This document shows positions 12,289 to 18,541 of a stretch of 39,240 nt of DNA, piece after piece (position 1 is the stretch's first letter; each line of letters opens with the position of its first letter). The notes below the pieces were generated by a model that did not search any database, was not told the DNA's origin, and saw only the letters and a list, made by a program, of their open reading frames with translations. A program made the position numbers and the translations under genes. Source of the DNA: Lachnospiraceae bacterium (GTDB lineage: Bacteria > Bacillota > Clostridia > Lachnospirales > Lachnospiraceae); contig JAILRO010000015.1 in assembly GCA_024698145.1 (NCBI GenBank), positions 1 to 39,240 on the forward strand, read 5' to 3'.

Positions 12289-13398
12289 TTATTCCGCATC
12301 CAATACGAGCACGCGGTACTTTCCACACAAGAAAGTCTGCCAATTAACGCTTTTGTACCTGTCGGCACCTTCAAACATAAATTGCATCTCGTGTTTGCCC
12401 TCGGAATAATCTTCTATTACAGCCTCATAACGCGTGTTGCCGTGTTGCACCATTTGTTTGTAGGCCTCATCTTCATATTCTTCAAAAGTTTCAAAATACT
12501 GATTATTGTATTGATAATAATTATAAGTCATGCTTTCCGCTTTGGGATAATCACTTCTAAGCCATGTGTGATTAGACGCCATAACTTCGTCAGACACATT
12601 AAAGTACGGGTGCATCACCTTATCACCCTGATCCGGAAGCGGATCGTCCCAAGTAGCATCCATATGATACCACTCTTCCGAGAGCTTTACAAGATTCCAG
12701 GCATGATCAACGTCTCCCGCCGTTCCCACAACAAAACAGGACTCCACTCCCACGCATGTAAACATCATCTGCAAAGCCTCCGCATATCCGTTACACACCG
12801 CATCCTCATTGACAAGCGCACCATACGAGGTATAAATATCACTCTCAACGTCAGAAACATCCTGTTCGCTGTAATGACAATGAGAAACTATGTAATCATG
12901 AAGTGCAAGTTCTTTCTCATAATCCGTCATTCCCGGTTTGATATAAGTATCAAGAACACTTGTCATTTTCTCGTATAAGGCTTTTGCTTTCGTCTCACTT
13001 TCCGGAATCGGCTCATCATTCATATACGCCTTAAGTACGTAATAATTCATGTTCCTCTTTATCTGAATCTCAACCTTCTTATAGTTATCGCCGACATTTC
13101 CAATCTGTCTGTACGCCGCACCGCTTCCGTATATACTGTTAAGTGAGTGATTGATATCCTCTATCTCACCTACATCCATGTTTTTGATATATACTACAAA
13201 TGATTCCTCGCCCTTTAATATCTCTTCATCAAGTCTTTTGGTCAACTCGTCAAGATTAGAATAAATGTTGCCCTCAACAAAATCCTCCTCCGTGTACGAT
13301 GCAACCTTTTCCTGAACCGAAGGGAACTTCAAATATGAGAATAAAGCAATGCATAAACCGATCATAAAAACAAGCAGCGCAACGGCTATTTTCTTCAT
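12289..13398 (-). CDS. Membrane-anchored transglutaminase-like protein
   Basis: 369 aa: one N-terminal membrane or uncleaved signal segment (KKIAVALLVFMIGLCIALF), a helical extracellular stretch, then a transglutaminase-like/papain-fold domain. The triad is visible as Cys202 in AVCNGYAEA, His232 in DVDHAWN and Asp247 in HMDATWDDP. Bacterial members act as extracellular proteases or cross-linkers; the substrate cannot be read from sequence. The ATG at 13398 has GGAGG nine bases upstream; an in-frame TTG at 13404 is too close to it. It is the first gene of a two-gene operon with the HAAS protein and has a consensus promoter. Confidence 0.88.
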   Translation of the reverse strand: MKKIAVALLVFMIGLCIALFSYLKFPSVQEKVASYTEEDFVEGNIYSNLDELTKRLDEEILKGEESFVVYIKNMDVGEIEDINHSLNSIYGSGAAYRQIGNVGDNYKKVEIQIKRNMNYYVLKAYMNDEPIPESETKAKALYEKMTSVLDTYIKPGMTDYEKELALHDYIVSHCHYSEQDVSDVESDIYTSYGALVNEDAVCNGYAEALQMMFTCVGVESCFVVGTAGDVDHAWNLVKLSEEWYHMDATWDDPLPDQGDKVMHPYFNVSDEVMASNHTWLRSDYPKAESMTYNYYQYNNQYFETFEEYEDEAYKQMVQHGNTRYEAVIEDYSEGKHEMQFMFEGADRYKSVNWQTFLCGKYRVLVLDAE

Positions 13399-13430
13399 CG
13401 GCAATTCCCTCCTTAAAAGATATGGCTCTA

Positions 13431-13459
13431 ATTATATAACTATATTATATATGTGTCAA
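13431..13459 (-). promoter_or_regulatory. Consensus promoter of the transglutaminase-HAAS operon
   Basis: Minus strand: TTGACA (13459-13454), exactly 17 bp, TATAAT (13436-13431): a perfect sigma-A promoter, starting 10 bases after the preceding gene's stop. Confidence 0.92.
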
Positions 13460-13468
13460 AAAAGTATC

Positions 13469-16051
13469 CTATTCTTTGTCGGATGTATATTCTCTTATAA
13501 GATTGTTGACGCGCTCAATCTCTTCTTTCAGTTCTCTTGCCGATATAACCATGCAATTCTGACCTCTTGTTATAAGCTGAATAAGACCGTCCGAGGTAGC
13601 AACAGTAACACGGTACTCTTTTGCAATCTCATGAGTAAGCTTCTCTATATATGCATCAGCAGTTTGCGCTTCTTTTGTGTAAACCACATGAATATTGTTA
13701 TAATCGAAAAACTCACCTATATTTCCCTTAACCTTATAAGCATCAAACACGAGTATCAACTCACATTTATCAAACGCCTGATAATTGCACAGTATATCCA
13801 TAAGCTTCGTTCTTGCACCGTCCAAATTATCTTCCGTAAGACTTTTTAATTCGTCCCATGCATGAACTATATTATAACCGTCAACAATCAAATATCTGGT
13901 TCCGTTATTTCTTCTTTCTTTACCCTTATACTTTGTATCCGGCAACGGTTTTGTTTTCTTGTAAACGTGCTTTGATGCTTTCTCATTTGCATGTGAAGTC
14001 TTATTGATTATCGCATCAATCTGTTCTTCATCAATGGAATAATCCATCACACGCCCACCAAGCACCACCGTGTTGTCATAGGCACCATTTGTCTTTTCTT
14101 CCAGCACACACGGAACATGCATTTTATCATGCACTTCATACCACGGAATGATTGTTCCCGCTCCATGACTGCAGAAAACCGAAGAACTTGGATTATCAAT
14201 ATCATTGTCCGGATTGTATCCTATTGTTTCTATAACTTCATCAGCATTATGACATTCATCATATCCGCTGACAGTACATGTAAGACTTCCCATTCCTTTT
14301 GTGTACGAGTTGACCTGTATTTGATAATCTCTCATAGTCGATACCGGAACAGTTCCTGTAAGTATCGCCTTATCATCAACAATCTCCGGCTGACTGTATT
14401 TGGCGTACATGTTTTCCATATCCGTCATAGCACGTCCCACACAATCCATTGGGATTTCAAGTCTAAATGAATAATAAGGTTCCAACAACACGCTTTCGGC
14501 CTGCATAAGTCCCTGTCTTACTGCACGGTAAGTTGCCTGTCTGAAATCTCCGCCTTCTGTATGTTTCGTATGTGACCGACCTGCCACAACCGTTATCTTC
14601 ATGTCTGTAATCGGTGAACCTGTAAGCACACCCACATGTTCTTTTTCCTCTAAATGCGTAAGAATAAGCCTCTGCCAGTTCTTTGCAAGCATGTCTTCGC
14701 TTACATCTGTTGCAAACTGCATTCCACTTCCACGCTCTCCTTTTTCCAAAAGAAGATGTGCTTCCGCATAATGTCTTAACGGTTCAAAATGACCAACACC
14801 ATACGCTTTGTCTTTGATTGTTTCTTTGTAAAGGATGTTCCCGTCGACAAAGCCTACATCAACACCAAAACGTTTTGCAATGGTATTCTTTAAAATCTCA
14901 ATCTGAACCTCTCCCATGAGAGTCATATATATAGTCTTTGTTTCCTCTTGCCATTTCACATGAAGTTCCGGTTCTTCTTCCTCTAACTGCCTTAGGTTAT
15001 TAAGCATTACAACAGCATCCACATCCTCTGGAAGAACAAGTGTATAAGTCAATACCGGCGAAAGCATCGGTACATCGGATGATGCTTCGCTTCCAAGTCC
15101 CTGTCCGGGATATGTATTGTTAAGTCCGGTAATCGCAACAACATATCCTTTCGACACTTCATTTACCGTCTCAAACTTCTCGCCTGAATATCTTCTTATC
15201 TGATTAATCTTTTCCTTGTCATTACCGGTATCAATTATGTCCTTAACCTTGATTGTACCCTCTGTAACTTTGATATATGTAAGACGTTCACCGTTGCTGT
15301 CTCTGGCAATTTTAAAAACACGTGCACCATAATCATTCGTATCTGTCAATGAACCGTCATTATCGCTCATAAAATGGCAAATAGACTCAAGAAATACATC
15401 AACACCGTCCATTTTAAGCGCTGAACCAAAGTAGCAAGGGAACATTTTCCTTTCGCTTATCATGGAACTTATCATCTCATCACTAATCGAAGCACCCGAC
15501 AAATATTTCTCCATGACATTCTCATCGCAAAGCGCTGCCTGTTCCATAAACTCTTCACGGTCAGCATCATTCCCATAAAGCTTATTAAAATTGACAAAGT
15601 TATCTCCAAGCTTGCTTTGTATATCCTCCATAAATGTTTCTGCATCGGTTCTTTCCTGATCCATCTTATTAACAAAAACAAATACCGGAATATTATACCT
15701 TTTTAATAATCTCCACAGGGTATATGTATGTCCCTGCACCCCATCTGCAGCACTGATAACCAGAACTGCATAATCCATAACCCATAGGGTGCGTTCCATT
15801 TCAGCCGAGAAATCCACATGCCCAGGGGTGTCTAACAAAGTTATGTCTGTATTGTATGCATTAAGCACTGCCTGCTTTGAAAAAATAGTAATACCCCTGC
15901 TTTTTTCCTGTTCATCGGTATCAAGGTGCGCATCCCCATTATCAACACGACCAAGCTTATTAATCGCTCCGCTTTGATAAAGCAACGCTTCAGATAAAGT
16001 TGTTTTTCCGGCATCTACATGTGCCAATATTCCTACTGCATATCTTTTCAT
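13469..16051 (-). CDS. EF-G/Tet(M)-like ribosomal GTPase fused to YacP/Rae1 NYN ribonuclease domain
   Basis: 860 aa. Residues 1 to about 690 are an EF-G-type factor closest to the Tet(M)/Tet(W) ribosome-protection group: P-loop AHVDAGKT (10-17), switch I RGITI (52-56), DTPGH (74-78), NKMD (128-131), then EF-G domains II-V. A Lys-rich linker (about 695-718) joins residues 719-860, which match B. subtilis YacP/Rae1 throughout (YLIVDGYNIV, LVFDAYKVKG, TKEAQTADAYIEKL, ISARELKEEIE). The acidic NYN/PIN residues are kept: Asp724, Asp770, Asp799, Asp821. Tet(M) enters the ribosomal A site and Rae1 cuts mRNA in the A site, so the fusion suggests a GTP-driven, ribosome-targeted mRNA nuclease. This is inference. 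A plain tetracycline-resistance label would be misleading. The ribosome site is weak or distant (AGAGGA, about 12 bases). Monocistronic. Confidence 0.9.
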   Translation of the reverse strand: MKRYAVGILAHVDAGKTTLSEALLYQSGAINKLGRVDNGDAHLDTDEQEKSRGITIFSKQAVLNAYNTDITLLDTPGHVDFSAEMERTLWVMDYAVLVISAADGVQGHTYTLWRLLKRYNIPVFVFVNKMDQERTDAETFMEDIQSKLGDNFVNFNKLYGNDADREEFMEQAALCDENVMEKYLSGASISDEMISSMISERKMFPCYFGSALKMDGVDVFLESICHFMSDNDGSLTDTNDYGARVFKIARDSNGERLTYIKVTEGTIKVKDIIDTGNDKEKINQIRRYSGEKFETVNEVSKGYVVAITGLNNTYPGQGLGSEASSDVPMLSPVLTYTLVLPEDVDAVVMLNNLRQLEEEEPELHVKWQEETKTIYMTLMGEVQIEILKNTIAKRFGVDVGFVDGNILYKETIKDKAYGVGHFEPLRHYAEAHLLLEKGERGSGMQFATDVSEDMLAKNWQRLILTHLEEKEHVGVLTGSPITDMKITVVAGRSHTKHTEGGDFRQATYRAVRQGLMQAESVLLEPYYSFRLEIPMDCVGRAMTDMENMYAKYSQPEIVDDKAILTGTVPVSTMRDYQIQVNSYTKGMGSLTCTVSGYDECHNADEVIETIGYNPDNDIDNPSSSVFCSHGAGTIIPWYEVHDKMHVPCVLEEKTNGAYDNTVVLGGRVMDYSIDEEQIDAIINKTSHANEKASKHVYKKTKPLPDTKYKGKERRNNGTRYLIVDGYNIVHAWDELKSLTEDNLDGARTKLMDILCNYQAFDKCELILVFDAYKVKGNIGEFFDYNNIHVVYTKEAQTADAYIEKLTHEIAKEYRVTVATSDGLIQLITRGQNCMVISARELKEEIERVNNLIREYTSDKE

Positions 16052-16471: not shown

Positions 16472-18223
16472 TTACTGTCTAACCTTAATGTGAACCTCTC
16501 GAAGCTGCTGTTCTGTAATCTCCGAAGGTGCTCCACACATAAGATCCTGCGCATTACCATTCATAGGGAACGGAATAACCTCACGAATATTCTCCTCATT
16601 TCTAAGAAGCATAATCATACGGTCAACACCTGGTGCCATACCTGCATGTGGTGGCGCGCCGTACTGGAATGCATTGTAAAGTGCTCCAAACTTCTCCTTA
16701 AGATCTTTCTCTGTATATCCTGCAATCTCAAATGCCTTAACCATAATATCAAGGTTGTGATTACGAACAGCACCTGAAGAAAGCTCTACACCGTTACATA
16801 CAATGTCGTACTGGTATGCAAGAATGTCTAACGGATCCTTCTCATTTAACGCCTCAAGTCCACCCTGTGGCATAGAGAACGGATTGTGTGTGAATATAAT
16901 CTTCTTACTTTCCTTATCGTACTCAAACATAGGAAAATCGTTAATGTAGCAGAATCTGTAAGCATTCTTCTCTAACAAATCAAGACGATTAGCAATCTCT
17001 GTTCTAAGCTGTCCTGCATAAGAAGCAGCAAGCTCCTCCACATCAGCTATAAAGAATATTGTATCGCCTGCAGTAAGACCTGCAAGATCCTTAATCTCTT
17101 CCTTCATATCATCAGGAATAAACTTATCGATAGGTCCCTTGTAGCTCATATCCTCTAATACTTCAAGATATCCAAGTCCACCCATACCGATTGACTGTGC
17201 ATACTTAAGCAATTTCTCATGCTGACCCTTTGAAAGCTTGGCATGTACATTGATTGCGCGAACTGTCTTGTCGTGGAATGGCTTAAATGTACATCTTGAG
17301 AAGAACTCTGTTACATCAATTATACGAAGCGGATTTCTAAGATCCGGCTTATCTGTACCAAACTCAAGCATAGCCTGTTTGTAGCTTATGATAGGGAATG
17401 GTGTATCTGTGATAGCTGCACCCTCTGGTGCAAACTTCTTAAATGTCTCGTATAATACTTCTTCACCAACCTTAAATACATCTTCCTGTGTAGCAAAACT
17501 CATCTCAAAATCGAGCTGATAGAACTCTCCCGGACTTCTGTCTGCTCTCGCATCCTCATCACGGAAACAAGGTGCTATCTGGAAGTACTTATCAAAACCT
17601 GACACCATAAGAAGCTGCTTATACTGCTGTGGTGCCTGTGGAAGTGCATAGAACTTACCTTTAAACTTTCTTGAAGGAACAACATAGTCTCTTGCTCCCT
17701 CTGGTGATGAAGCACAAAGAATAGGTGTCTGAATCTCCAAAAATCCCATGTCTGTCATTTTCTGTCTTAAGAAACTGATTACATTAGAACGAAATATCAT
17801 GTTGTCACGAACCTTAGGATTACGAAGATCAAGATAACGATACTTAAGTCTTACATCCTCTCTTGTTTCTTTAGAAGTTACTACTTCAAAAGGAAGCTGA
17901 TGATAAACCTTACCAAGTACCTCTACGCTCTTTGCCTCAAGTTCTATTGTACCTGTCGGAATCTTGGGATTATAAGTTTCCTCATCACGATGCTCAATGA
18001 CACCTGATACGCTGATACAATCTTCTCTTGAAAGACCGTCAAGCAAAGAAGTATCACGCATTACTACCTGCATAACGCCATACATATCACGAAGATCGAT
18101 AAATGATACTCCACCATGATCTCGGATATTCTCAACCCAACCGGAAAGTTTAAGCTCTGTTCCTACATCTGCTTCACTAACCTTATCCATTGTACGATTA
18201 CGATAAATGTTGTTCGTGTTCAT
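16472..18223 (-). CDS. aspS: Aspartate--tRNA ligase, probably non-discriminating
   Basis: 583-aa bacterial-type class II AspRS: N-terminal OB anticodon-binding domain (GWVENIRDHGG), motif 2 (FRDEDARADRSPGEFYQLD), the bacterial GAD insertion (about 280-400) and C-terminal motif 3 (GMAPGVDRMIM). The ATG at 18223 has AAGGAG seven bases upstream; an ATG nine codons earlier lacks one. The residue after RD in the anticodon domain is His36. At this position E. coli's discriminating enzyme has Leu and the Pseudomonas aeruginosa non-discriminating enzyme has His (published H31). Together with the AAC specifier in the T-box leader, this suggests the enzyme charges both tRNA-Asp and tRNA-Asn, with GatCAB amidating the latter. 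Confidence 0.95.
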   Translation of the reverse strand: MNTNNIYRNRTMDKVSEADVGTELKLSGWVENIRDHGGVSFIDLRDMYGVMQVVMRDTSLLDGLSREDCISVSGVIEHRDEETYNPKIPTGTIELEAKSVEVLGKVYHQLPFEVVTSKETREDVRLKYRYLDLRNPKVRDNMIFRSNVISFLRQKMTDMGFLEIQTPILCASSPEGARDYVVPSRKFKGKFYALPQAPQQYKQLLMVSGFDKYFQIAPCFRDEDARADRSPGEFYQLDFEMSFATQEDVFKVGEEVLYETFKKFAPEGAAITDTPFPIISYKQAMLEFGTDKPDLRNPLRIIDVTEFFSRCTFKPFHDKTVRAINVHAKLSKGQHEKLLKYAQSIGMGGLGYLEVLEDMSYKGPIDKFIPDDMKEEIKDLAGLTAGDTIFFIADVEELAASYAGQLRTEIANRLDLLEKNAYRFCYINDFPMFEYDKESKKIIFTHNPFSMPQGGLEALNEKDPLDILAYQYDIVCNGVELSSGAVRNHNLDIMVKAFEIAGYTEKDLKEKFGALYNAFQYGAPPHAGMAPGVDRMIMLLRNEENIREVIPFPMNGNAQDLMCGAPSEITEQQLREVHIKVRQ

Positions 18224-18253
18224 AACTTTCTCCTTTTCTATTATATACAAGAA

Positions 18254-18541
18254 GCCCGCCCTAAGCGAACATTCTTAAAGTTCACTCAGGACGGGCCTTA
18301 TATGTCCCGCGGTACCACCTGAATTACCATGTGTACCATAATCACACAGTCTCTCATCGGTTCTTTCAAACCTTACCAAAATAACGGTTGGTTGCCGGCT
18401 CACCTACTAATCGCAAAATGTTCAGATTGCAGCTGATAAAGTGTTATTCGCACCGATTCATTCTATGGGGTTTGCACTATTTCCCACTCACTGTAAGCGA
18501 TAATCAATGTTACTTCTCTTCGTCATTGCTTTTTATAAAAC
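18254..18541 (-). promoter_or_regulatory. T-box leader of aspS, specifier AAC (Asn)
   Basis: tRNA-sensing leader of about 290 bases. The invariant T-box AGGTGGTACCGCGG lies at 18320-18307. The terminator hairpin (GCCCGTCC...GGGCGGGC) spans 18297-18254. Stem I begins near 18530 with the S-turn AGAAGTA. On its 3' side the loop reads GAATAACA, lining up base for base with GAAAGGCA of B. subtilis glyQS, whose specifier is GGC; the specifier here is therefore AAC at 18445-18443, an Asn codon. No GAC or GAU fits that slot. Uncharged tRNA should stabilise the antiterminator and switch aspS on. Confidence 0.9.

Follow-up and report, generated by a model that had tools for sequence, protein, structure and literature searches.

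A translational GTPase joined to a Rae1/YacP-type nuclease as a probable stand-in for Rae1 in Lachnospiraceae and other Clostridia

According to the accessible parts of the literature, Rae1 (YacP) of B. subtilis acts in the ribosomal A site as a translation-dependent mRNA endonuclease (PMC12320835, PMC10100781), and its allele R166P suppresses efp as a loss of function does (PMC6613710). Moreover, the binding place of Tet-type GTPases lies over the A site, and Pro509 of Tet(M) is the tip proline in the tetracycline site (PMC8161019). An architecture combining a Tet protein with a YacP-like NYN domain has been reported for ten Clostridiales species by Atkinson and co-workers, who guessed a role in resistance (Atkinson 2015; PMC4342817); the initial annotation of the locus was right in supposing that the architecture was already listed. 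The main text of Atkinson 2015, in its available portion, mentions neither a replacement of Rae1 nor a separate group of GTPases (PMC4342817).

The DNA analysed here, which we call the window, is a stretch of 39,240 nucleotides from a Lachnospiraceae bacterium. It contains a gene of this architecture with the following features:

13469..16051, minus strand: whole fusion gene, 860 aa (open reading frame with ATG start)
15371..16039, minus strand: G domain, residues 5-227, with the motifs AHVDAGKTT, RGIT, DTPGH, NKMD and GSAL (Pfam GTP_EFTU, 4.3e-52)
15113..15322, minus strand: domain II, residues 244-313 (Pfam EF-G_D2)
14855..15058, minus strand: domain III, residues 332-399 (Pfam EFG_III)
14498..14839, minus strand: domain IV, residues 405-518 (Pfam EFG_IV)
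14540..14572, minus strand: domain IV tip HTKHTEGGDFR, residues 494-504, with Lys496 aligning with Tet(M) Pro509
14246..14491, minus strand: domain V, residues 521-602 (Pfam EFG_C)
14108..14245, minus strand: conserved tail with SVFCSHGAG, residues 603-648, also present in the standalone sister GTPases, whose chains stop close to this point
13898..14107, minus strand: variable linker, about residues 649-718, mostly of low confidence in the predicted model
13472..13897, minus strand: Rae1/YacP NYN nuclease domain, residues 719-860, with D724, D770, D799 and D821 (Pfam NYN_YacP at 721-856, 3e-46)

The fusion protein is thus a GTPase followed by a tail, a flexible linker and a nuclease. All Pfam domain matches exceed their own curated cut-offs, and the open reading frame, Pfam and phmmer confirm the annotated 860-aa chain of an EF-G/Tet-type GTPase with a C-terminal YacP/Rae1 NYN domain. 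In a predicted structure based on 24 sequences (mean pLDDT 81.8, pTM 0.63) the domains are confident, and the linker has a pLDDT of 30-56, falling below 50 at residues 652-673 and 681-716. The model contains no docked arrangement of the two halves and places the NYN domain without confidence. Across the fusions, the linker measures 60-202 aa and has a median identity to the window protein of 20%, versus 52-65% elsewhere. Since the architecture recurs in 115 loci and the own genome has one YacP match, a chance or assembly join can be dismissed.

The NYN half reaches 157.9 bits against PF05991 (cut-off 24.6), and a phmmer search of the PDB matched it to B. subtilis YacP/Rae1 (5mq8/5mq9, E 2.5e-21). 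The four acidic residues named in the initial annotation, D724, D770, D799 and D821, were all borne out, as they align with Rae1 positions 7, 53, 81 and 104 (counted on the phmmer alignment). We take these four Asp of Rae1 to be its catalytic residues. They are all present in 114 of the 115 fused proteins compared, which include some near-copies, the exception being a truncated frame (L217), and they are kept in 27/27 rows of the solo YacP set. A Foldseek search was also tried as evidence on the NYN domain; the 50 rows shown were all EF-G-type chains and added nothing. The annotated match to YacP/Rae1 holds for the NYN domain and the four Asp but not for the C-terminus: the window protein lacks the Rae1 stretch beyond about position 145 (approximately the last 25 residues), and thus its NYN half is not a complete Rae1. 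The window protein has 39 residues beyond the last Asp. At least 64 are found in 24 of 24 solo proteins measured (27 loci, of which three without the motif were dropped; the set includes L065, a partial fusion gene lying at the end of its contig), and no more than 49 in 41 of the 112 fusions that were measured (115 loci, three dropped); the C-terminal end is shorter in fusions than in solos with p 1e-4 if relatedness is ignored. The position of R166P falls inside the missing stretch. This part of Rae1 may be a docking or stabilising element that the GTPase has made dispensable.

In the own genome, which is 99.85% complete, the fusion gene is the sole YacP match, and the separate rae1 gene that, according to the initial annotation, would speak against a replacement is therefore not seen there. 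The family sample comprised 150 genomes that are at least 95% complete, with fused status set by frame length rather than by individual reading. YacP was found in 138 of them, in frames of at least 500 aa (129 genomes) or below 300 aa (nine genomes), and in 12 there was none. Seven of the nine short-frame genomes stay solo and two were reassigned: G067 resembles a fusion broken by contig ends, with GTPase and NYN on two contigs, and G027 carries the halves in adjacent overlapping frames split in the linker. The initial annotation had also raised the question of which genomes carry the fusion and which a separate yacP; among the 195 genomes of the class sample, again sorted by frame length, 68 are fused, 60 are solo, four have an intermediate frame and 63 are without YacP, and no genome has a clear pair. 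YacP occurs in 42 families of this sample, and the 68 fused genomes are spread over 22 of them. The phylum sample (249 genomes; 138 with a match, 137 of them above the cut-off) added 11 fused rows outside the class, in four further families. Furthermore, a scan of named genomes, with a query built from fused rows, gave 597 confirmed loci, the best 80 of which all have GTPase plus NYN, four of them as two frames; these 80 include Lachnospiraceae, Oscillospiraceae, Caproicibacter, Anaerovorax, Clostridium punense, Desulfosporosinus and others. The protein is conserved across numerous gut and other anaerobic bacteria. At L293 (1014-3699), L186 (8675-11231) and L191 (6427-9133), GTPase and NYN are encoded by two frames that overlap, with the break inside the linker, which may reflect natural fission, a frameshift or a sequencing error; at L142 and L166 the split lies further upstream.

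In the fused genomes of the family, class and phylum samples there is no clear second solo YacP above the cut-off. The second hit of G024 is cut by a contig end, those of G126 and G095 are two pieces of one gene, and those of G257, G307 and G335 lie under the cut-off. The mutual exclusion of fused and solo forms in the class sample has a hypergeometric p of 8.6e-15, with relatedness ignored. In the solo loci, yacP lies directly behind an rlmB-like frame in seven of the ten printed, as judged by eye; the other gene names near solo yacP are likewise our recognition by eye. A tblastn comparison of 22 hand-chosen genomes placed yacP after rlmB in 0/15 fused and 6/7 solo genomes, G038 being the exception. 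The rlmB locus of the own genome (rlmB 252 bits) lacks yacP. At the expected place of yacP, between rlmB and a sigH-like frame, this genome has a low-complexity frame of 190 aa with TQAPDTQAP repeats (L253, 5432-6004, minus strand). Within the genus g175, the solo genome G196 has yacP after rlmB and the fused genomes G257 and G307 do not; in these two, about 180 and 250 bp, respectively, separate the end of the rlmB match from that of the sigH match. Fused and solo forms also coexist within the families f1, f19, f20, f23 and f42 of the class sample and f105 of the phylum sample. Common descent of fused and solo NYN domains was rejected for f20, f23 and f19 (AU p 9e-5, 0.0076 and 0.0053, respectively). 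Because the fused NYN domains of these three families are not kin of their own family's solos, incoming fusions have displaced resident solo genes. The data thus support that the fusion stands in for Rae1.

The genomic place of solo yacP bears on what the nuclease might cut. Solo yacP mostly adjoins rlmB and an mrnC-like frame, which we take to be mrnC, the gene of an rRNA-maturation RNase. This would suit an enzyme cleaving rRNA or tRNA, with the GTPase guiding the nuclease to ribosomes that are faulty or not yet mature, for quality control or maturation, and Atkinson 2015, in its accessible text, both cites a proposal that YacP matures rRNA and tRNA and names an rRNA RNase ability as a thing to test (PMC4342817). 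However, the characterised relative, Rae1, cuts mRNA in the A site (PMC12320835, PMC10100781), and we regard rRNA or tRNA cleavage as improbable.

The number of fusion events was addressed with a tree of the NYN domains. With all 75 rows, the tree requires five changes between fused and solo; after pruning to 58 rows it requires two, and a single fused clade is not rejected (p 0.545). For the pruning, 13 loci were dropped as long-branch, gappy or near-copy, and four named loci were not taken up again. In the pruned tree, the solos nearest to the fused rows are those of the window's own family. The simplest history that the trees allow would be one fusion, between a standalone GTPase and the Rae1 of that lineage, followed by descent and transfer.

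The residues of the GTPase motifs are kept in 110-114 of the 115 fusions. The nearest solved relative of this half is Tet(M) (E 8e-78 in a PDB sequence search), and its best NCBIfam match is the resistance family NF012153. Moreover, annotations of tetracycline resistance are attached to a fusion of Agathobacter rectalis and to the majority of the Ligilactobacillus standalones listed. Effects in E. coli are described for distant ribosome protection genes that share 44-51% identity with those already known (PMC7725328, as far as accessible), so that distance alone leaves resistance possible. These points would fit a ribosome protection protein of the tetracycline type to which an RNase has been added, as guessed in Atkinson 2015 and as implied by the automatic annotation of some copies. 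However, the match to NF012153 reaches 440.8 bits against a cut-off of 775, and that to the EF-G family TIGR00484 308.3 bits against 659.4. Tet(M) Pro509 aligns with Lys496 of the fusion; Lys occupies this position in 112/115 fusions and 14/16 standalones, and Pro in 6/7 Tet-like rows. The tip H.KHT.GGDFR and the loop FEPLRHYAEV are common to the fusions and their sister GTPases, unlike Tet and EF-G, and the domain IV tip differs from that of the three EF-G rows in the alignment. The own genome carries another EF-G-type gene (L003). A tree of 69 GTPases was built by a quick method with SH-aLRT support only, and long branches, most of all L062, were flagged in it. On one side of a branch supported at 100, it has 43 fused and 16 standalone rows. 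The seven Tet-like rows, six of which are annotated resistance genes, fall together at 94 on the opposite side, and the three EF-G-type rows are apart from the fusions. Support for the group of fused rows is 93, and a single standalone GTPase (Ligilactobacillus) falls within it. Most of the family genomes sampled also have just one copy of the gene, a pattern that differs from that of a scattered resistance gene. The distinct tip and loop, Lys496 and the scores below the cut-offs make the resistance role guessed in Atkinson 2015 unlikely, and we consider the ribosome protection protein with added RNase highly improbable. The recognition of drug-bound ribosomes, which the initial annotation had entertained, is unsupported for the same reasons, namely the grouping apart from resistance proteins, the low family score and the replaced proline.

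The occurrence of the two halves has been used to ask whether they depend on each other. In the family, none of the 12 YacP-less genomes has the GTPase (at 1e-110), and five of the seven true solos have it separately. The joint absence gives a p of 0.0018, or 0.009 without G070, whose GTPase is partial and contains a stop; G004 has none and G044 a Tet-level match only. In the class, standalone GTPase and solo yacP are not linked (8/13 vs 52/110 genomes, p 0.39): five of 13 genomes with a standalone GTPase are without YacP, two of the five belonging to one genus, and the standalone GTPase is absent from 52 of 60 solo-yacP genomes. These last counts indicate that each half is able to work without the other, and the lack of co-occurrence in the class counts against a GTPase-targeted nuclease. 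They speak for two independent enzymes on one string, an ordinary Rae1 that reaches the A site alone and a GTPase with a separate EF-G-like job, joined for co-expression. The length and variability of the linker point the same way, as do the halves found in separate overlapping frames in G027, L186 and L191. However, loss of the Rae1 C-terminal part in 41/112 fusions and 0/24 solos, the joint absence in the family and the wide spread of the fusion over families of the class and phylum samples argue against independence, and we hold this explanation to be rather unlikely.

We lean, by a modest degree, towards the view that the fusion is a GTPase-targeted Rae1 with a housekeeping role, cutting mRNA on ribosomes that have paused. 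As Rae1 acts in the A site and Tet-type GTPases bind over it, the fusion joins two likely A-site visitors, and because it replaces the separate Rae1 gene, its probable task is to deliver the nuclease to stuck ribosomes. In this proposal, the GTP form of the EF-G-like half would bind to a 70S ribosome that has paused or stalled, at its factor site. Domain IV, with a tip that resembles neither the one of EF-G nor the one of Tet(M), would enter the A site or its vicinity, clearing or opening it. GTP hydrolysis would then withdraw domain IV, and the NYN domain, held near by the flexible linker of about 70 residues, would move into the vacated A site and cut the mRNA. The cut message would be handled by tmRNA, whose gene is present in the own genome (176 bits), and by exonucleases. 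The ribosome binding, the order of events, the A-site cut and the targeting by the GTPase are what we infer, and ribosome rescue by the fusion is plausible in view of the tmRNA gene. The proposed turn-taking, with the GTPase first, follows from the fact that a seated domain IV and the NYN domain cannot share the decoding site. This order is required by the mechanism and has been seen by nobody, which counts against the proposal. Also unfavourable to it are the predicted model, in which the halves are not docked, and the changing gene neighbourhood described below. A bolder version would be a single-chain, GTP-driven cut-and-clear factor, in which the EF-G-like half ejects an A-site block from a stalled ribosome, the codon laid bare passes to the nuclease of the same chain and hydrolysis is coupled to cleavage. 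A dominant bacterial family of the gut would then have this factor as its main no-go response, and the sisters without NYN would be the same clearing module without the blade. We regard this version as conceivable but on balance doubtful.

The surroundings of the gene vary. No neighbour family occurs at an equal relative place in more than 7 of the 115 loci, some of which are short. In the window, Rfam found no leader regulation for the fusion; its hits are two tRNAs and a T-box leader (RF00230, 96.3 bits) at 18284-18535, minus strand, just upstream of the frame 16472-18250, which presumably is aspS. A sigma-70-like promoter match (12/12) lies at 13431-13459, minus strand, between the end of the fusion and the gene 12289-13404, which is thus probably transcribed on its own; the overall count of sigma-70-like sites equals that in shuffled sequences. 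By eye, the loci L050, L215 and L164 of three distant genomes have a common stretch upstream of the fusion with ACTGGTATC, as if the gene travels with its own promoter. The Agathobacter rectalis fusion (L226, 3968-6769) is located on a 252 kb plasmid and adjoins a BrnT/CopG pair. A standalone sister GTPase is located on a Ligilactobacillus salivarius plasmid (L219, 2986-4920), where its neighbours are rpsN and a putative metal homeostasis gene, and 33 Ligilactobacillus plasmid records match the standalone GTPase at 1e-90. Viral carriage was considered for two IMG/VR contig edges (L261, 1-2178 and L262, 1-2178) and rejected: both hold a standalone GTPase without NYN, probably a host gene beside a prophage.

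If the favoured reading of a GTPase-targeted Rae1 is true, a GTPase cycle would be tied to mRNA cleavage on the ribosome within one chain, and there would be a handle on how Rae1 gets to the A site. It would also suggest what is done by one branch of the Tet-like GTPases, whose members probably do not serve in resistance. Resistance surveys are affected, as at least one public record (Agathobacter rectalis) names the fusion a tetracycline resistance protein. In the accessible parts of the open-licence literature, we met neither the replacement of Rae1, nor the grouping apart from resistance proteins, nor the C-terminal loss in fusions, nor any activity or experiment on a fusion; there, the fusion is stated by Atkinson 2015 only, and the available portions of PMC7725328 and PMC11780869 do not mention it.

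Compared with known systems, the fusion is identical in architecture to the Tet plus NYN proteins of Atkinson 2015. With B. subtilis Rae1/YacP (5mq8, 5mq9), it has in common the NYN domain, the four Asp and apparently an equal genetic role, but its NYN domain follows a GTPase, lies at another locus and is without approximately the last 25 residues. Like Tet(M) and Tet(O), to which it has about 30% identity, it possesses five EF-G-like domains; unlike them, it is without the tip proline, falls outside the resistance grouping and the curated cut-off, and carries the SVFC.HGAG tail and a nuclease. The standalone sisters, found in Paenibacillus (L228), Ligilactobacillus (L219) and clostridia (L229-L242), lack the linker and the NYN domain, and they share with the fusion the tip H.KHT.GGDFR (in nearly all cases), the loop FEPLRHYAEV and a tail that ends near MHC.
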